From positions 1 through 43,545 of the forward strand of contig JACNJF010000095.1 of NCBI GenBank assembly GCA_014382695.1: DNA of 43,545 nucleotides. Direction: 5' to 3'. This stretch comes from Gammaproteobacteria bacterium (GTDB taxonomy: Bacteria > Pseudomonadota > Gammaproteobacteria > GCA-001735895). Every line of letters starts with the position of its first letter. Positions within the stretch are counted from its first letter, which is position 1. Positions 28,052 to 43,545 of the stretch are shown here, one piece after another. A program made the translations under genes and the position numbers. Below the pieces are notes generated by a model, which was given only the letters and a program-made list of their open reading frames with translations, was not told where the DNA came from and ran no database searches.

Positions 28052-30076
28052 TTATAACAGTGGGATCATCATCAGCGCAACAATGTTGATGATTTTGATC
28101 AGCGGGTTAATCGCTGGACCGGCCGTATCCTTGTAGGGGTCACCCACGGTGTCACCGGTAACAGCCGCTTTATGCGCATCGGAACCTTTGCCACCATGAT
28201 TACCATCTTCAATGTATTTTTTCGCGTTATCCCAGGCGCCACCACCGGTGGTCATGGAAATAGCCACGAATAGACCCGTTACTATAGAACCAATCAGCAT
28301 GCCCCCCAGCGCTTCAGCCCCCAGCAGCAGTCCCACCAGGATGGGCATGGCTACCGGTAACAATGACGGGATAATCATTTCCTTGATCGCCGCACGGGTC
28401 AGCATATCAACAGCCTTGGAGTAGTCCGGCTTTTGTGAGCCATCCATAATGCCCGGCATTTCACGAAACTGACGACGCACTTCATTCACGATTCCACCGG
28501 CAGCACGGCCCACGGCTTCCATCGCCATCGCACCAAACAGATAGGGAATCATACCGCCGATAAACAGGCCAATGATCACCATGTGATTGGACAGCAGGAA
28601 TTCCGTCGCCTTACCGGCTGCCGCCAGGGAACTGGTAAAATCGGCAAACAGAACCAGCGTGGCCAGACCGGCAGAACCGATGGCATAGCCCTTGGTCACG
28701 GCCTTGGTGGTATTACCGACTGCGTCCAGCGCATCCGTGGTATTACGTACGTCTTCCGGTAGATTTGCCATCTCGGCAATACCACCCGCGTTATCGGTAA
28801 TCGGACCATAGGCATCCAGTGCAACGATAATACCGGTCATCGATAACATGGCGGTCGCGGCAATCGCGATACCATATAAACCCGCCAGATGATGTGCACC
28901 CCAGATCGAGATACAGACCGCAATAACCGGCAGTGCGGTTGAACGCATGGAAACACCCAGACCGGCAATAACGTTGGTGCCATCACCGGTGGTTGAGGCT
29001 TCTGCGATACGACGCACCGGACCGTATTCGGTGGCGGTGTAATATTCAGTGATGACAATCATCGCAACGGTCAGTACCAGACCGATCAATGCCGCACCAA
29101 ATAGTGCATCGGTAGAATACAGGCCATTATTCGCCATCATGGAGTTGGTAATAAAGTAAAAACCGACAGCTGACAGAATCGCGGAAACACCGGTTGCCAT
29201 ATACAGAGCCGTCATGATCTTGCCGCCTTCCTTGTACTTCACAAAGTAAGTACCGATAACCGAACAGATGATCGAAATACCACCCAGCACTAACGGGTAA
29301 GTAACCGCCATTTCCAACGCCTGAGCGCCTTGTTTGGCGAACAACAGACCACCCAGTATCATGGTGGCGATGATGGTTACCGCGTAGGTTTCGAATAAAT
29401 CCGCGGCCATACCCGCACAGTCACCCACGTTGTCACCAACATTGTCAGCAATAACCGCCGGGTTACGCGGATCATCTTCAGGGATGCCGGCTTCAACCTT
29501 ACCAACGATGTCGGCACCTACGTCAGCACCCTTGGTAAAGATACCGCCGCCCAGACGGGCAAAGATGGAGATCAGTGATCCACCGAAGGCCAGGCCGATC
29601 ATGGCATGCAAAGGGTCTGGTGCATCGATCGCCAGTAACACACTGTAATAACCCGCTACACCCAGTAGTCCGAGGCCAACTACTAGCATACCGGTGATCG
29701 CGCCACCTTTAAAAGCAACTGCCAGTGCCGGGTTGATACCCTCTCTGGCAGCTTCAGCAGTACGGGAATTGGAGCGAACCGATACGTGCATACCGATATA
29801 ACCGGCCGCACCCGACAGCAACGCACCAACCGAAAAACCAATCGCGGTATACCAGTCAAGGAATATACCAATTGCTGCAAAAAGAATGATGCCGACGACA
29901 GCAATTGCGGTGTACTGACGCTTCAGGTAGGCAATTGCACCTTCCTGTATGGCACCAGCAATCCGTTTCATCTCATCATTACCCTGCGATTTAGCCAGAA
30001 TGCTGTAAATTGAGATAACCCCGTAGGCAATACCTACAAAAGCACAAATAAGTGCCATTATTAATCCAGAAGTCAT
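28052..30076 (-). CDS. hppA: H+-translocating membrane pyrophosphatase, K+-independent type
   Basis: HppA couples PPi hydrolysis to proton pumping (or the reverse) across the membrane. The 674-residue protein has the length and about 16 helices of the family, with catalytic loops [13 protein letters not shown] (184-195) and [19 protein letters not shown] (211 onward) and the C-terminal [18 protein letters not shown]. The segment [17 protein letters not shown] has Lys at about residue 458; K+-dependent members have Ala there (GNTTAA), so this is the K+-independent class, normally H+-specific. It is downstream of adk on the same strand but behind the adk terminator. It neighbours pfp and ppa, which also handle PPi. 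Confidence 0.97.
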
Positions 30077-31634: not shown

Positions 31635-32891
31635 ATGACAAAGAAAAATGCATTCTATGCACAGTCTGGCGGCGTAACCGCCGTGATTAACTCATCAGCC
31701 TGCGGAGTTATCGAAACCTGTCGCAAACATAGCGACAAAATCGGTAATGTACTGGCTGGCAAAAACGGCATTATCGGCGCTTTAACCGAGCAATTGATCG
31801 ACACCTCCCAGGAGTCAGATGCGTCTATCGCCGCGCTCAAGAAAACCCCATCCGGCGCCTTTGGCTCGTGCCGTTTCAAGCTTAAAAGCCTGGAACACAA
31901 TAAACGTGAATACGAGCGTTTGATCGAAGTTTTCAAGGCCCATAATATCGGTTACTTCTTTTATAACGGCGGCGGTGACTCGGCTGACACCTGTTATAAG
32001 GTTTCACAGCTTTCTGAAAAGATGGGCTATCCGGTACAGGCGATACACGTGCCTAAAACCGTCGATAACGACCTGCCGATTACCGACAACTGCCCTGGCT
32101 TTGGCTCGGTGGCTAAATATATCGCGGTTTCGACACTCGAAGCCTCCTATGATGTGCGCTCAATGGCGGCCACCTCGACTAAAATATTTGTAATCGAAGT
32201 AATGGGACGTCACGCCGGCTGGATCGCCGCTGCCGGAGCACTGGTTGAAGATTACGGAATTCCGGTCATTACCCTGTTCCCGGAAATTGAATTCAACAAG
32301 GAAAAGTTCACCGCTGCGGTAGATGCCAAGGTAAAGGAATACGGTTACTGCACGATCGTGGTTTCCGAAGGTGCGCATTATCCAGATGGTACCTTTCTGG
32401 CCGAACAGGGCACCCGTGACTCTTTCGGTCATGCCCAGCTGGGCGGTGCAGCACCCGTGGTTGCGAATATGATCAAGGATGCATTAGGACATAAGTTCCA
32501 CTGGGCGGTTGCCGATTACCTGCAGCGCGCTGCACGTCACCTGTCTTCCGAGTCAGACGTGGAACAGGCTTATGCTTTAGGTCAGGCTGCGGTTGAAAAA
32601 GCGCTCGAAGGTAAAAATTCCATCATGCCAACCGTTGTACGCGAATCCTCTAATCCGTATAAATGGAGCATCGGTGAAGCCCCCCTAAGCGAAGTTGCCA
32701 ATGTGGAAAAAATGATGCCGATGGATTTTATCACCGAAGATGGTTACGGCATTACCGCCAAGTGTAAGGAGTATCTCTACCCACTGATCAAGGGCGAGGC
32801 CTACCCGGATTATGATGACAACGGCATGCCGAAATACGTCACCTTGAAAAACCAGCTGGTAGCCAAGAAACTGCCTGCTTTTGAAATTTAA
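31635..32891 (+). CDS. pfp: Pyrophosphate-dependent 6-phosphofructokinase
   Basis: This enzyme reversibly phosphorylates fructose 6-phosphate with PPi instead of ATP, serving glycolysis and gluconeogenesis; some relatives also act on sedoheptulose 7-phosphate. The 418-residue protein shows the PPi-type active site. In YNGGGDSADTC (110-120) an Asp stands where ATP-PFKs have Gly, and PKTVDND (140-146) carries the Lys typical of PPi enzymes. The sugar-binding MGRHAGWIAAA (190-200) and SEGAHYPDG are intact. A GGAGA ribosome site precedes the ATG. It is followed by a strong terminator. From established knowledge, in some methanotrophs and sulfur-oxidiser symbionts pfp is linked to a membrane pyrophosphatase gene; here hppA lies 1.6 kb away, divergent. 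Confidence 0.94.
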   Translation: MTKKNAFYAQSGGVTAVINSSACGVIETCRKHSDKIGNVLAGKNGIIGALTEQLIDTSQESDASIAALKKTPSGAFGSCRFKLKSLEHNKREYERLIEVFKAHNIGYFFYNGGGDSADTCYKVSQLSEKMGYPVQAIHVPKTVDNDLPITDNCPGFGSVAKYIAVSTLEASYDVRSMAATSTKIFVIEVMGRHAGWIAAAGALVEDYGIPVITLFPEIEFNKEKFTAAVDAKVKEYGYCTIVVSEGAHYPDGTFLAEQGTRDSFGHAQLGGAAPVVANMIKDALGHKFHWAVADYLQRAARHLSSESDVEQAYALGQAAVEKALEGKNSIMPTVVRESSNPYKWSIGEAPLSEVANVEKMMPMDFITEDGYGITAKCKEYLYPLIKGEAYPDYDDNGMPKYVTLKNQLVAKKLPAFEI

Positions 32892-37356: not shown

Positions 37357-38175
37357 TCAATAGCCCATGCGATCACCGACCATATAGTTATAACCATTAT
37401 CAAAGTGTGAAACCAGCATACTGCTCATGTATTTGGAAAATCCGGTCTGCTTCAGTTCAAAGCGGGTAATCAGATCCAGCATCCACATCGGCACCTCGCC
37501 GATATTGCACTTCAACTCCAGCACTACGTTGGTAAGGTTCTGATTAAACTGGTTGGTGGTATAGATATTTTCATTATCGTAATTCAGCATGTCGTTTCCC
37601 GGCACCAGCGTCAGCATCGACTCATTACGGTATTTCATGTCTATATCCAACGTTACACGCGCATAATTATCCACCGTAGAAAAAAATGCACGGCGCCGAT
37701 ACTGGGTCAAAATTTTAGGCTCTAGCGCATAACTATGGACCAGCCTGAGGAATAACTCTTTATTCCGACGCTCCATCTTAAATTCATTCGGGTCTATCCG
37801 ATAACAGGGATCCTGTAATATTTGTGGCCACTGTTTATCGGTTGCAGTCGCGCGGTACTTTTTAACGATTGAACCTATCTTGTGCTTAATTTCCATAAAG
37901 TACGGTGCCTTATCGCCATCCGCATAGGCCCGTACCCGCATATTAAAACGGCTATCCTTGCCATTCATACGTTGCTGCAACAACTCCAGCCCTCGGGTAT
38001 CAAAATACAGGCTGTTAACCACGTAAAAATGATCCTCTGCCAGACTGGAGTAATGATCCAGAGAACAATAAGGCGAGATAAAGCGGGTGATTGGCTCAAC
38101 CAGTTCATATGGGACCAGATACTTCAACTCATGCCGTTCGAGTACCGGGGGGAGATTACTGAGGACGGCAGACAT
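37357..38175 (-). CDS. VTC-domain polyphosphate polymerase
   Basis: VTC domains (from yeast VTC4) are tunnel-shaped triphosphate-tunnel-like enzymes that make polyphosphate from ATP. The 272-residue protein consists of the domain alone. Basic and acidic tunnel residues are visible: RHELKY (14-19), YFDT (57-60), FNMRVRAY (77-84), MEIKHK (94-99), QYRRRAF (158-164), ELKC (220-223) and GFSKYMSS (245-252, the C-terminal tunnel Lys). There is no membrane segment, so it would need a membrane partner to move product, as in yeast. An AGGAG ribosome site precedes the ATG. It follows the Pit transporter by 51 bases and ends the operon. Bacterial VTC genes are often near DUF4956, as here. Confidence 0.9.
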   Translation of the reverse strand: MSAVLSNLPPVLERHELKYLVPYELVEPITRFISPYCSLDHYSSLAEDHFYVVNSLYFDTRGLELLQQRMNGKDSRFNMRVRAYADGDKAPYFMEIKHKIGSIVKKYRATATDKQWPQILQDPCYRIDPNEFKMERRNKELFLRLVHSYALEPKILTQYRRRAFFSTVDNYARVTLDIDMKYRNESMLTLVPGNDMLNYDNENIYTTNQFNQNLTNVVLELKCNIGEVPMWMLDLITRFELKQTGFSKYMSSMLVSHFDNGYNYMVGDRMGY

Positions 38176-38226
38176 CTTGGACTCCTGCTGATTTGCGTAG
38201 CTTGTGGGTATTAAGAGCCAGCCTGT

Positions 38227-39804
38227 TCATGTCAGCATAAACCCTCGGATGGTGTAAAAAATAAACGCCGCCATCAACGCGGATGCTGGCACAGTGATCA
38301 GCCAGGCCGCAATAATGCGGTAGAGTGAGGTGCGCTTTACCAGCACATTGGTGAAATATTTTTTTAATCGTTTACGTTCTTTATTGCTCAGCTTTGCTTT
38401 GGCAGAATGATGTTTCAGCTGCTTCAACATGTCTGATTTTTTGGCCACAGAAGCGCGTTTGAAGTTTTCCAGAAACACCTTCACCGCCTGTGGATCATTA
38501 TCCTGATGATGATGAATAATATCGATCACCATATTGTCGTAGCCTGACTTAATCGATTCGCGCAGGAAGCCAACCCCAAATATCGCGCCTAATGCTATAT
38601 GCGTGGAGCTAACCGGCAAACCAAACTGGGTCGCGATCAGTACCGTAATCGCCGCGGACATAGCGATGCAAAATGCACGCATCTGATCCAGCTCGGTAAT
38701 TTCAGAGCCGACTTTCTTGATCATTCTGGGGCCATACAACATCAATCCAAGAGCAATGCCGGCTGCGCCCACGATCATCACCCACAAAGGTATTCCGGCC
38801 TTCCCGTTAGTATGGTTACCGACCTGTGACACCGCGTCATTGATGGCGGCAAGCGGCCCCACCGCATTGGCTACATCATTCGCACCATGCGCAAAACTCA
38901 ATAAGGCCGCCGATACGATCAACGGTATCGTAAACAGCCGGTTAATCGCCCGCTTGGTGTTACTTAAGCGACCCGCCGCTCTGGCAAATAACGGGCGGAC
39001 CAGAATAAAAACCAGCAGCGCGATCATGAAACCGGTCATTAGTGCCATAGAAAAATCCACTTTCCAGATTTTTTTCAGCCCTTTCAGTATCAGATAACTG
39101 GAAAAAGCCCAGCTCATCAGCATGATCAACCAGGGAACCACTCTGACCGCAGCCTGCAACCGGTCTTCCTGATAGGTAATCTGACGTTTGATAAAATATA
39201 GAAAGGCAGCAGCGATCACTCCGCCCATCAATGGAGAAATAACCCAGCTGGCAACGATCGCAGCAAGCTGTGCCAGATTTGCTACTTGCCAGCCACCCGC
39301 CGCAACCCCGGCACCGAGGATTCCGCCGACGATAGAATGCGTGGTCGAAACAGGGGCGCCCGACCAGGTCGCAATGTGCAGCCACAGGGCCGCAGCAAAC
39401 AGGGCGGAGATCATCAACCAGATAAAGGTATTGTTATCAGCGATCAGCGCAGGATCGATAATGCCATTTTTGATGGTGGTTACGACCGATCCACCGGCAA
39501 TCAGTGCCCCGGCAGACTCGAACACGACTGCAATCAGGATGGCCCCGGTCAGCGTTAAAGCACGGGCGCCAACCGCTGGCCCGACATTATTGGCCACATC
39601 ATTAGCGCCTATATTCATCGCCATATAACCACCAATCATAGCGGCGATCATCAGTGTGACGCTATGTTGCGAATAAAAAGATGTCAGATACATAAACAGC
39701 ATAATGCCGACAATGAACAAAAATGCAGTCCCATTGCGGAACACCCTGTATTGATTATTATTAATCGTAATTTTCAGGGTATTAAACTGACTGGTATTTG
39801 ACAT
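38227..39804 (-). CDS. Inorganic phosphate transporter, Pit family
   Basis: This is an inner-membrane low-affinity phosphate (metal-phosphate/H+) symporter. From the ATG at 39804 (after GAGAG) the protein has 525 residues, with the two inverted Pit signatures GANDVANNVGPAVG (about 66-79) and GANDVANAVGP (about 307-317), and GAPVSTTHSIVGGILGAG and GLPVSSTHIALGAIFG after each. Between the last repeat and the final helix there is a hydrophilic, Lys-rich insert of about 70 residues (roughly 418-490) that includes HHHQDNDP and NKERKRLKKYF. A GTG 15 bases upstream would overlap the TolC-like gene. It is part of the VTC operon, where it could supply phosphate or respond to its level. Confidence 0.93.
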   Translation of the reverse strand: MSNTSQFNTLKITINNNQYRVFRNGTAFLFIVGIMLFMYLTSFYSQHSVTLMIAAMIGGYMAMNIGANDVANNVGPAVGARALTLTGAILIAVVFESAGALIAGGSVVTTIKNGIIDPALIADNNTFIWLMISALFAAALWLHIATWSGAPVSTTHSIVGGILGAGVAAGGWQVANLAQLAAIVASWVISPLMGGVIAAAFLYFIKRQITYQEDRLQAAVRVVPWLIMLMSWAFSSYLILKGLKKIWKVDFSMALMTGFMIALLVFILVRPLFARAAGRLSNTKRAINRLFTIPLIVSAALLSFAHGANDVANAVGPLAAINDAVSQVGNHTNGKAGIPLWVMIVGAAGIALGLMLYGPRMIKKVGSEITELDQMRAFCIAMSAAITVLIATQFGLPVSSTHIALGAIFGVGFLRESIKSGYDNMVIDIIHHHQDNDPQAVKVFLENFKRASVAKKSDMLKQLKHHSAKAKLSNKERKRLKKYFTNVLVKRTSLYRIIAAWLITVPASALMAAFIFYTIRGFMLT

Positions 39805-39811
39805 GCTACTC

Positions 39812-41020
39812 TCAGCCACGACTATTCTGCGTCACTGGTGGTATTAGCCAGTTGGTATCAAGCTCGCGGCCGAGCACAGAGTAATGCGCCAGCAGCTCAA
39901 TATATAGCTTTCTGAAACTCTGACGCTCCCGCATGATACTTTTCAGTTGCGCTAAATGCTGCTGACGTAATTTAATGATGAGACGGGAATCAGTAGCTTT
40001 TTTGATACGGCTATCGATACTTTTGGCCAGTCGCTCAAAAGCCAGAATGGAAATCTGACTCTGTTCCATCTTTTGAACCAGCTGTGCGGCTTTTAAAGCA
40101 GCGCTCTGCTGTAACCGATGCAGGCGATAAGTGACTTCAGACACATCCTGCTGCCTGACCCCACTGTTAAATGCAGGCCGTGCAAAAGGAATCCGCAAAT
40201 CGACCTGAATACCGGTTACGGTATCCTTATTATGATTAAACTCCTGCGACAGCTGAACCGCCGTTAAAGCAAACTTTTCGCCACTTTGTTCATGTTTCAA
40301 TTTTTTTTGTTGCAGCATTAAATCGAGTTGAGCGTGCTCAACCTCAAGCGTTGTCCTATCGCTATATTGCGCCACCACATCCAGCATCATTTTTTCTGTT
40401 AACGTTAACTGTGGTAGTTTTGCATCAAATTTTAAGGCTTTGGTCAGGGCATTGATCTGACGCACCTGTAACTCGATCTGAAACCTGTGCTGCTCATGCT
40501 CCAGTTCATTTTCAAGTAGATTTTCCGGGTGAAAGTCATTTGACAGCACCAGGTTACGATAGTATTTGATCGCGGCCGCATGCATAGAGGAGACAACCTG
40601 CAGGTGATCGAGCTGTTCCTGTTCGGCAATCAGGTCGAGCAATTCAGAATAAGCCCTTTGCAGCCGATCATTCAGTGCCTGTTGATGATCCAGTTGACGC
40701 TGCTCCTGCGTCAGTTGAAGAATGTCCTGCTCGATACTGTGTCGTGGAGCATTCTTTAATTTAACCCGCAGTGCTATCGAACGCTTATTATCATCATCGT
40801 TTTCAGCACTTAAACGCAGCTCAGTTCCATCAACCCAGCCTCGCACATTTTCCACAAAACCATCATTTGCCGATGACATGATCAAATCACTTTGTAGCGC
40901 GGATTGCTGCTCATCGATAATCTGCTGAAAATACTGGCGCAAATCTTCATTATTGGCATAGCCGCTGGAAGTGAAGCAGACCAGCGCAAGCACGCTCAAC
41001 CAACGGTAATTTTTTATCAT
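39812..41020 (-). CDS. TolC-like secreted coiled-coil protein, partner of the membrane fusion protein
   Basis: This is probably a periplasmic/outer-membrane channel subunit. The 402 residues start with a signal peptide (IKNYRWLSVLALVCFTSSGYA), then an N-terminal region with beta-like segments (RGWVDGTELRLSAENDD), followed by long helical stretches rich in Gln, Leu and Glu (RLQRAYSELLDLIAEQEQL; MLQQKKLKHEQSGEK; ALKAAQLVQKMEQSQISILAF) as in TolC-type helical hairpins. LRIPFARPAFN resembles the conserved RIPLF-type strand before the second hairpin of TolC-like proteins. The start at 41020 follows GGGTGA; an ATG 12 bases earlier overlaps the stop of the preceding gene. Similarity to TolC is structural in impression, so a different helical-hairpin protein is possible. 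Confidence 0.68.
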   Translation of the reverse strand: MIKNYRWLSVLALVCFTSSGYANNEDLRQYFQQIIDEQQSALQSDLIMSSANDGFVENVRGWVDGTELRLSAENDDDNKRSIALRVKLKNAPRHSIEQDILQLTQEQRQLDHQQALNDRLQRAYSELLDLIAEQEQLDHLQVVSSMHAAAIKYYRNLVLSNDFHPENLLENELEHEQHRFQIELQVRQINALTKALKFDAKLPQLTLTEKMMLDVVAQYSDRTTLEVEHAQLDLMLQQKKLKHEQSGEKFALTAVQLSQEFNHNKDTVTGIQVDLRIPFARPAFNSGVRQQDVSEVTYRLHRLQQSAALKAAQLVQKMEQSQISILAFERLAKSIDSRIKKATDSRLIIKLRQQHLAQLKSIMRERQSFRKLYIELLAHYSVLGRELDTNWLIPPVTQNSRG

Positions 41021-41031
41021 CGGTTCACCCA

Positions 41032-42987
41032 TTACAGTGTTAGCGGCAGAAAACGTGATGCATTTTTACCATCGCCATCAAATACCACGACGACTTCTCC
41101 ATCTTTTGAAGTTGCACTGATGCCCTCCGCTCTCAGTCGATCAAAGGTCTTGAGTGAACGTAGAGCCGAAGTTTCGGGCTGATACGACCACAGATGACTA
41201 CTGATAGACCCCTGACCCTTGCTAACCCCTAATAACAACAGTCTGCCATTATAAAACAGCATGTCGGATAGTAATGCAGGGGAACCGGTTTCTGGATTGA
41301 GCAGGGATACACTGCGCCAGATTCTGCCCTTCACGGGCTCACCCAGGAACAGACCTTGAATATTTTCCAGTTTCAGGATAACCGTTTCATCGCGTGAATT
41401 AAGCGGTGTTTTAAAGCCCAGATACAGATCATTCTGATACACATTATGGGCCTCGAGTTCGATCGACTTGTTGCGCAGAGCCGTCTTCAGAAACTGACGC
41501 GTATCCAGATCTTCTGCCGTTTTTGACAGCCCTTCGAGCACATCATACATATTCACCTGCCCGTCGCTGATGACACTGTTGCCATCGGTGCTCAGGCGTA
41601 ACAGATGACGCCGCTTCTTTTTACTTTTATCCAGTGACGACAGTACATACACGCTATCACCTTCACGACTGATACTTTCCAGATCATCCACAGCCTCACT
41701 CGTCTGAATCCCAAGACGTGCCACCAGCTCACCCTGGGAATTGATCTTGAATAGCTCCGGCTTATCGTTTTCAGACTCATCACTAACGATTAGATAACTG
41801 TCATCGCGTAACGCTGAAATAATGCCGGAAGCTTCGATCTGATGATCTTCCAGACCGTTCACCAGAGAACGAATAGGATAGCCCTCAAGACCCGCTGGAT
41901 CGCTCGACAGGCTGGCGGCCTGAGTTTGCCCGATACCGTTCGAAATAAATCCGAGAATACTGCTCAGCAGGCCTTTCTCATTCTCCGGATGATCCAGCGT
42001 CACGATCACTTTTTCACCCAGCAACAGGTTATTTTCCTCGGTCAGACGTATTACCGCTTCACGACCCCAGGCCGATACCATCATGTTTTTCTTCAGGCGC
42101 ATCGGGTATTCCACTATTCGACTTCCCAGACTTTCCACTACTGCAGCGATCGGAACATTATTATTCGTGTTGGTATTCGACTTGACCCACACCTGTTGGC
42201 CGATAGCGACCTGATTAAACACGTTTTCATGGATATAGCCCTTAACGAACTTAGGAGAAAGCCCGTGCACCGTCAGAATTGTTTCAAAAGGAGCGACTGT
42301 TTCACCCGGCTTGACGTTAACGCTACCGACCCGGCCATTGAACTTGGCAACCACACGTAAATCCGTGATTTGACGTAAAAACTCCGTTCTACGTTCTTCC
42401 AGCTCGGCTAATTTCGAATCAAACGGGCGCACCGTGGCACTCAACTGACTCTCCAGGTTACTGATCTGTGCAGCCAGCGATTTCTCGATATGCCCACGCT
42501 GTTCCAGCATGCCCTGAATTTCTGTGTCAATCGGGCTGGAAGACGTAACCCGGGTTTTGGAGCCCGAGATTTCTTTCAGTAACTTCTCATTTAAACGTTG
42601 CTGCGAACGCAGATTTTCAATCTTGGAATCGATCGCGGACAGCTCTGCAGCCTGTTGCGCACGTAGACTATCCAGCCTTGCCTGAGTAGACGCCAGATCT
42701 TCATCCGAAGTCGCTTTCAGAGCCTGAATCTGGTCTTCGATGATCACCAGTTTAGTGCCCAGATCACGCCGCCGCACTTCAAGAATCTGCATACCCTGCG
42801 ATACTTCGCCACCTTCTACCGCAAAGATTTGCACGATTTCAACGGGGTAGCTGAAGCTGATCGTTTGCTCATGATCATCCGCAATCCCAAAGAAATGGGT
42901 CGACTCAAGCTTTAACAGGCTCACCAGAAATGCCAGAGAAACAATGGCCACCAGCCAGACCAGGGGTAATAATTTTTTACTCATCAT
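41032..42987 (-). CDS. HlyD-type membrane fusion protein fused to a propeller-like C-terminal domain
   Basis: This inner-membrane-anchored periplasmic adaptor has an extra domain. Of 651 residues, 8-26 form the anchor. Residues about 45-75 are the first half of the lipoyl/barrel part (FSYPVEIVQIFAVEGGEVSQGMQILEVRR), 80-205 are coiled-coil (Gln/Glu/Leu-rich helices), 210-250 are the second half (VVAKFNGRVGSVNVKPGETVAPFETILTV), and the beta-barrel region runs to about 340. The C-terminal 280 residues carry repeated strand units with DLESI, IELEAH and AEGISA motifs, as in phytase-like or DUF3616-type propellers. The typical MFP length is 300-450, so this is a fusion. An AGGTGA ribosome site is present. 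Its stop overlaps the TolC-like gene start region. Confidence 0.75.
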   Translation of the reverse strand: MMSKKLLPLVWLVAIVSLAFLVSLLKLESTHFFGIADDHEQTISFSYPVEIVQIFAVEGGEVSQGMQILEVRRRDLGTKLVIIEDQIQALKATSDEDLASTQARLDSLRAQQAAELSAIDSKIENLRSQQRLNEKLLKEISGSKTRVTSSSPIDTEIQGMLEQRGHIEKSLAAQISNLESQLSATVRPFDSKLAELEERRTEFLRQITDLRVVAKFNGRVGSVNVKPGETVAPFETILTVHGLSPKFVKGYIHENVFNQVAIGQQVWVKSNTNTNNNVPIAAVVESLGSRIVEYPMRLKKNMMVSAWGREAVIRLTEENNLLLGEKVIVTLDHPENEKGLLSSILGFISNGIGQTQAASLSSDPAGLEGYPIRSLVNGLEDHQIEASGIISALRDDSYLIVSDESENDKPELFKINSQGELVARLGIQTSEAVDDLESISREGDSVYVLSSLDKSKKKRRHLLRLSTDGNSVISDGQVNMYDVLEGLSKTAEDLDTRQFLKTALRNKSIELEAHNVYQNDLYLGFKTPLNSRDETVILKLENIQGLFLGEPVKGRIWRSVSLLNPETGSPALLSDMLFYNGRLLLLGVSKGQGSISSHLWSYQPETSALRSLKTFDRLRAEGISATSKDGEVVVVFDGDGKNASRFLPLTL

Positions 42988-43004
42988 AAGTCACCTGTTC
43001 CTGA

Positions 43005-43545
43005 TCAAAGATCTACCGTGGCTTCTTGCATCATCAAATTCACACCCTGTAATGACCCCAGCGTCTTCAGATCAGCAAGCAGTCCTTCATGCGTTTTGCC
43101 TCTTCTCATTTTTATATGATAGGCATAGTCCAGACGCTGTCCCTGCTCAATTTCACGCAGGGTTACCAGCGCGAATGCCTTGCAGTACTGGCTCATAATT
43201 TTCTCTAGTCGGGAGCGGTCTTCACTCACATTCGGCAGATTAAAGCGCAGCATGCCGTCAAAAAAGTTATTCGGCCCGAGCGGAGAGTAATACAGCAGCA
43301 TTGCCGCCAGAGAAAATGCCAGCGTACCAACGATGGCAACGGTAAAGGCATAGGCTCCACAGGCAATACCGGCTGCCAGCGAGGAAAACAGAAAAAGCGT
43401 ATCGCGCGGGTCTTTCAGGTTGGTACGAAAACGAATGATGGCCATCGCGGCCATGATCCCTATACCCCTCGCCAGACTATCACCTACGGCCTGAATAATG
43501 ACCGATGAAATAATCGAAATCAGTACGATAGCCTGTACATAATTA
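43005..43545 (-). CDS. DUF4956 membrane protein (5' end beyond the window)
   Basis: The frame is open from 43005 to the right edge, so the gene starts outside. The visible 180 residues begin with a membrane segment (AIVLISIISSVIIQAVGDSLARGIGI), then AAMAIIRFRTNLKDPRDTLFLFSSLAAGIACGAY, which is the signature of DUF4956, another helix (AFTVAIVGTLAFSLAAMLLYY), and a soluble alpha+beta C-terminal domain (RFNLPNVSEDRSRLEKIMSQYC onward). The internal ATG at 43454 would truncate a conserved helix and is not the start. The family is of unknown function and commonly sits beside VTC-domain genes. It is 17 bases from the membrane fusion gene, first seen gene of the operon. Confidence 0.85.
   Translation of the reverse strand, partial: NYVQAIVLISIISSVIIQAVGDSLARGIGIMAAMAIIRFRTNLKDPRDTLFLFSSLAAGIACGAYAFTVAIVGTLAFSLAAMLLYYSPLGPNNFFDGMLRFNLPNVSEDRSRLEKIMSQYCKAFALVTLREIEQGQRLDYAYHIKMRRGKTHEGLLADLKTLGSLQGVNLMMQEATVDL

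Follow-up and report, generated by a model that had tools for sequence, protein, structure and literature searches.

How polyphosphate comes to be placed in the bacterial periplasm or on the cell surface is, to our knowledge, not explained by the cytosolic enzyme PPK. Five minus-strand genes at one end of a 43,545-nucleotide gammaproteobacterial contig, the whole of which was analyzed and is referred to here as the window, raise the question of whether synthesis of the polymer can be coupled to its passage through the envelope. The assembly that holds the window (3.99 Mb in 238 contigs) is estimated to be 95.9% complete. In their order of transcription, the genes encode a DUF4956 protein (43005..43544; 179 aa; PF16316, E 5.9e-11), a periplasmic adaptor of the MFP/HlyD family (41032..42987; HlyD_3, E 3e-7), a TolC-shaped secreted protein that is probably an outer-membrane channel (39812..41032), a Pit-family phosphate transporter (38227..39804; PHO4, PF01384, E 2.5e-107) and a VTC-domain polyphosphate polymerase (37357..38175; PF09359, E 3.7e-44). 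The contig end cuts the 5′ end of the DUF4956 gene, so the readable sequence stops there and the N-terminus of the protein is cut. From DUF4956 to VTC, the genes are spaced by 17 bases, a 1-base overlap (TAATG), 7 bases (to the Pit start codon, ATG 39804; an alternative upstream GTG at 39819 is possible) and 51 bases. The end of a convergent gene with weak similarity to Ap4A phosphorylase lies 14 bases past VTC and thus places the end of the operon at VTC. An earlier, sequence-only reading had described five packed genes with these spacings, and both the open reading frames and the gaps were confirmed. The five genes are a real operon, and their spacing and conserved order point to a single transcript. 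The parts had also been named correctly: Pfam identifies four of the five proteins (DUF4956, HlyD_3, PHO4 and VTC), and a low-confidence fold model of the fifth resembles TolC-type proteins. Elsewhere in the window, a membrane H+-pyrophosphatase near a phosphofructokinase gene (28052-30076 and 31635-32891) suggests a pyrophosphate-based energy metabolism.

The VTC protein (272 aa) is soluble and consists of the VTC domain only, with no SPX domain and no hydrophobic segment. It matches the Pfam family at 151.5 bits (cut-off, 23) over profile positions 1-234 of 235. A phmmer search of solved structures with the single sequence returned chance matches only and a broader profile was needed; this profile, built from nine bacterial VTC proteins, found yeast Vtc4 (3g3q) with an E-value of 1e-20. 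Residues R80, R82 and E220 of the window protein align with Vtc4 R264, R266 and E426, whose joint replacement impairs the yeast enzyme (PMC9911596), and Vtc4 K200, K281 and K458 are kept as K18, K97 and K248. The conservation of these active-site residues suggests that the window protein is probably an active polyphosphate polymerase. The homology with the yeast VTC complex (Vtc1/3/4) thus includes the polymerase domain and its R264, R266 and E426 equivalents, and in the window operon, too, the polymer may plausibly be made at a membrane protein that carries basic residues. However, the window protein lacks both the SPX domain and a VTC1-type membrane domain of its own, and its constant partner is a different membrane protein, DUF4956. 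The gene for PPK1 is present in the window genome and in that of a relative of the same genus (G001), and was not found in a more distant genome carrying related genes (G137). VTC is therefore not merely a storage enzyme in the window's lineage.

The membrane partner is best described from the sister genome G001, where the DUF4956 protein is full-length (L033:535-1218; 227 aa) and 89% identical to the window copy. An AlphaFold2 model of this protein (pLDDT 79.5) has five membrane-length helices followed by a beta-alpha-beta-beta-alpha-beta domain. Almost all fold-search matches fall on this C-terminal domain, which resembles ACT/ferredoxin-like domains (Z up to 10.3; rmsd 2.1 over 79 residues); a search of solved structures with the DUF4956 profile gave no match. 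In hhalign comparisons, a broad DUF4956 alignment matched MgtC, represented by two sequences, over the membrane and C-terminal parts (92.3% probability, E 5.6e-7), and a narrower DUF4956 profile did so with a probability of 28%. DUF4956 is therefore modeled as, probably, an MgtC-like membrane domain joined to an ACT-like domain that probably faces the cytosol. The same description has been published for the Streptococcus relative SIR_1592 (PMC12345266). The order of domains and the profile similarity thus recall the MgtC/SapB family, yet the window protein matches only its own Pfam family, DUF4956, with no match to MgtC/SapB (PF02308), and is set apart by an RFRT motif and by its linkage to VTC. 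Residues R86 and R88 are invariant in 12 of 12 diverse family members and sit, with K92 and R95, in a loop (RFRTNLKDPR) that the positive-inside rule places in the cytosol and where an anionic polymer could plausibly dock. The proposed membrane partnership of DUF4956 with VTC is strongly supported by an obligate gene linkage and by the conservation of these basic residues on the predicted cytosolic face. DUF4956 may also be a channel, whereas the role described for MgtC is to regulate ATP synthase and phosphate signaling (PMC12345266 and references there). The patterns used retrieved no DUF4956 relatives in viral contigs, and plasmids contained only five distant DUF4956 proteins.

The two proteins encoded after DUF4956 could form an envelope-spanning pair. 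The adaptor has the barrel-sandwich and hairpin region of the HlyD family, matching HlyD_3 at 31.6 bits (cut-off, 22.2), and profile positions 40-273 match the EmrA structure 4tko (E 1.6e-5). Its only hydrophobic stretch (residues 1-30) is an N-terminal membrane anchor, followed by a helical hairpin region and a C-terminal DUF3616-like domain of about 290 aa. DUF3616 was recognized in the C-terminal half of two adaptor relatives below the cut-off (E 0.0029 and 0.033), and the domain is probably a beta-propeller. A free DUF3616-like protein akin to it (26.9 bits; cut-off, 20.6) is encoded in a genome of the same family (L013:3-866). A kinship of the domain with a phytase-like neighbor in locus L058 was also considered and gave no signal. 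The next protein (406 aa) has a signal-peptide-like N-terminus. Membership of the OEP family (PF02321) by sequence was rejected, as Pfam gave no match and hhalign against six OEPs of the same genome returned a probability of 2.4%; its profile had no match among solved structures. The AlphaFold2 model, built from three sequences and with a pLDDT of only 49.5, shows two repeats of a beta-hairpin plus long helices. At that pLDDT and with TM-scores of 0.3-0.4, the top 32 Foldseek matches are all of the TolC/OprM/CusC type (best E 8.3e-6). Judging from this model, the protein probably works like TolC even though it lies outside the OEP family by sequence. As in EmrAB-TolC and HlyBD-TolC, an MFP-family adaptor and a TolC-shaped protein stand side by side after an inner-membrane protein. 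Unlike those systems, the operon has no known pump, the adaptor carries a DUF3616-like domain and the outer protein is not a recognizable OEP. The Pit protein, a putative phosphate transporter by family, matches PHO4 at 359 bits over profile positions 1-350 of 350.

Among 143 relatives, full-length counterparts of the adaptor were found in two genomes only, G001 (62% identity) and G137 (31%, from another family); samples of 369 members of the class and 398 of the phylum, which overlap, contained no others, and none were found on plasmids. The sister locus (L033; its genome, G001, matches GenBank record JABHSO010000213.1 from the gammaproteobacterial metagenome bin SI039_bin4) has DUF4956, MFP, TolC-like, Pit and VTC genes in the order seen in the window and, as there, all on one strand, with an 18-base gap, a 1-base overlap and gaps of 1 and 43 bases. 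Protein identities between the two are 89% for DUF4956, 62% for the adaptor, 35% for the TolC-like protein, 57% for Pit and 75% for VTC, and all five genes have pN values (0.07-0.43) far below pS (0.72-0.84). In G137, the only genome of its order, a CotH gene and a lamin-tail-domain gene precede DUF4956, MFP, TolC-like and VTC genes in that order; Pit is conserved in the sister and absent from this copy and is, therefore, an optional part of the operon. The same order in three genomes and the low pN show that the operon is not due to chance; this recurrence and purifying selection also rule out an assembly artifact. By these comparisons, the cassette is real, old and rare among the sampled genomes. 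The co-occurrence of the five families that the sequence-only reading proposed to look for was therefore found, albeit rarely, with the MFP-TolC version confined to three genomes. The neighborhoods of the two relatives differ. Upstream of the G137 cassette (L035:11260-15883), the CotH protein has lamin-tail and cadherin-like domains and is followed by the second lamin-tail protein. Downstream of VTC in G001 (L033:6993-13180) are genes for a LuxR-type response regulator, a histidine kinase, a TPR protein with a barrel-like C-terminal half and a GT2 glycosyltransferase; the region resembles an exopolysaccharide locus, and such genes are not beside VTC in the window.

The link between VTC and DUF4956 is much broader. 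In the sample of 369 genomes of the class, DUF4956 is present in 12 and VTC in eight, all of them among the 12, and the two genes lie within 6 kb of each other, their matches within about 5.5 kb, in 8/8 VTC genomes (hypergeometric P for co-occurrence about 6e-14, phylogeny ignored), as expected from the recurrent neighborhood that had been suggested earlier. The two occur together in the window, G001, G137 and six more genomes. The third partner varies: it is the MFP-TolC pair in the first three and CotH or a CotH-like protein in G106, G151, G253, G257, G344 and G137 (below the Pfam cut-off in G106 and G344), so that G137 has both. In G144 (L053:2-7438), a single run combines a Cthe_2159 carbohydrate-binding protein, VTC, DUF4956, a phosphate-selective porin O/P, a histidine kinase and a response regulator. 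In G206 (L061:8510-11076), Pit, DUF47 (PhoU-like) and a DUF4956-like gene stand in a row without VTC, which, by gene order, is an independent tie between the DUF4956-type membrane family and phosphate transport. Genomic comparisons thus describe DUF4956-VTC as a constant core, already known, with an outer module that varies; here, the core has gained an outer-envelope module and Pit.

The core is known from the CotH-VTC-DUF4956 accessory genes of Gram-positive Pel clusters, such as SIR_1592-1594 of Streptococcus intermedius (PMC7112168, PMC12345266). Those clusters share with the window the VTC and DUF4956 (MgtC-like plus ACT) core in one operon and a suspected role in phosphate metabolism and a surface polymer. 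By contrast, the window is Gram-negative, its genome has no recognizable CotH, no Pel genes were seen in the window and its operon adds the adaptor, the TolC-like protein and Pit. One study (PMC12345266) reports no CotH-VTC-DUF4956 arrangement of this kind outside the Pel locus. Groups of DUF4956, VTC and CotH(-like) genes are nonetheless present in five gammaproteobacterial genomes (L054:6449-10590, L056:2732-9300, L057:8737-12817, L058:7840-11829 and L059:8647-12766), and no Pel genes were recognized among the neighbors scanned; these groups seem to contradict the restriction. The L059 group sits among glycosyltransferases. The sequence-only reading had expected CotH to the right of the window operon. 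This was not upheld: although G137 has CotH, neither G001 nor the 95.9%-complete genome of the window gave a match. A CotH gene beyond the contig end was rejected, as the search of the window genome returned none, and CotH next to the operon is unlikely.

The reading we favor, while giving it somewhat less than an even chance, is that the operon encodes a polyphosphate-making envelope machine in which synthesis is coupled to passage through the envelope. The cytosolic VTC protein would make polyphosphate from ATP, as its conserved active site strongly suggests, and would work with DUF4956 in the inner membrane, a partnership to which the obligate gene linkage points. The ACT-like domain, probably facing the cytosol, could sense a small molecule or dock VTC. 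A DUF4956 oligomer would probably guide the nascent chain across the inner membrane, past the conserved arginines, in a manner comparable to the yeast VTC complex. The adaptor, with its probable propeller, and the TolC-shaped protein could then continue the path across the periplasm as far as the outer membrane and bring polyphosphate, or a polymer made with it, to the cell surface, while Pit would import phosphate and replace what is spent. No known pump (RND, MFS or ABC) is encoded in the operon, although one may be encoded elsewhere in the genome; several membrane helices occur in just two of the operon's products, DUF4956 and Pit. Of the inner-membrane proteins, DUF4956 alone is shared by the three copies with MFP-TolC; hence, DUF4956 is the likeliest inner partner of the pair. 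Phosphate-transport genes also recur near DUF4956, as the L053 porin and the L061 Pit-DUF47 genes illustrate. Polyphosphate synthesis and its link to DUF4956 are well supported; export is what we infer, and the MFP-TolC pair may plausibly be its route. The most specific version, a dedicated export machine in which VTC synthesis feeds a pore formed by an MgtC-like DUF4956 oligomer and a duct of adaptor and TolC-like protein to the surface, is rather doubtful.

Against an envelope conduit, the MFP-TolC pair is missing from most DUF4956-VTC loci, and the core can thus do without it; the substrate of the pair could also be a different one, and MgtC, the relative of DUF4956, has been described as a regulator rather than a channel. 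In a somewhat less probable explanation, VTC and DUF4956 would be a cytosolic and inner-membrane unit for polyphosphate or phosphate sensing that controls the envelope, with the ACT-like domain sensing the nucleotide or phosphate state much as MgtC acts on phosphate signaling. The merely co-regulated MFP-TolC pair would then export a polysaccharide, a protein or a small molecule. The resemblance of DUF4956 to MgtC plus ACT (PMC12345266), the DUF4956-VTC-CotH loci at Gram-positive Pel polysaccharide clusters (PMC7112168) and the two-component system, TPR protein and GT2 glycosyltransferase just downstream in the sister genome are all consistent with such a unit. However, the MFP and TolC-like genes lie between DUF4956 and VTC in 3/3 genomes, which suggests physical coupling, and neither the window nor G137 has a pump or a synthase alongside them.

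The adjacency of Pit and VTC in the window and G001, and of Pit and DUF47 to the DUF4956-like gene in L061, would also fit an operon for intracellular phosphate storage, with Pit importing phosphate, VTC storing it as cytosolic polyphosphate, DUF4956 regulating the process and MFP-TolC serving as an accessory efflux for chelated metals or waste. Yet both Pit-bearing genomes already have PPK1, and G137 keeps MFP-TolC without Pit, so that phosphate uptake is less constant than the envelope parts; we regard storage as improbable. Still less probable, though suggested by CotH or CotH-like proteins being the commonest third partner (in the six genomes listed above), is that polyphosphate, once exported, donates the phosphate with which envelope polymers or proteins are modified outside the cytosol, where it would work even with ATP scarce. 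CotH-type kinases would act in most loci, and the MFP-TolC version would deliver polyphosphate to another acceptor. Known CotH activity uses ATP, however, two of the matches (G106 and G344) fall short of the Pfam cut-off, and neither the window genome nor G001 yielded a CotH match. We therefore rank the envelope conduit ahead of regulation, storage and phosphate donation, in that order.

The earlier claim that this set of genes is undescribed agrees with our searches, which retrieved no description of VTC with an MFP-TolC pair. Many journals and preprints were outside the coverage of the literature searched, so the missing description is weak evidence; the combination of VTC, DUF4956, Pit and MFP-TolC seems undescribed. 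With a conserved operon that joins a VTC polymerase to a constant membrane partner and a putative outer-envelope conduit, the question of polyphosphate placement becomes testable. In the sampled Gammaproteobacteria, VTC is always accompanied by a nearby DUF4956 gene, so a clear, testable role can now be proposed for a family whose function is unknown. If the export-machine reading is true, the operon would encode a tripartite system driven by polymerization rather than by a pump.
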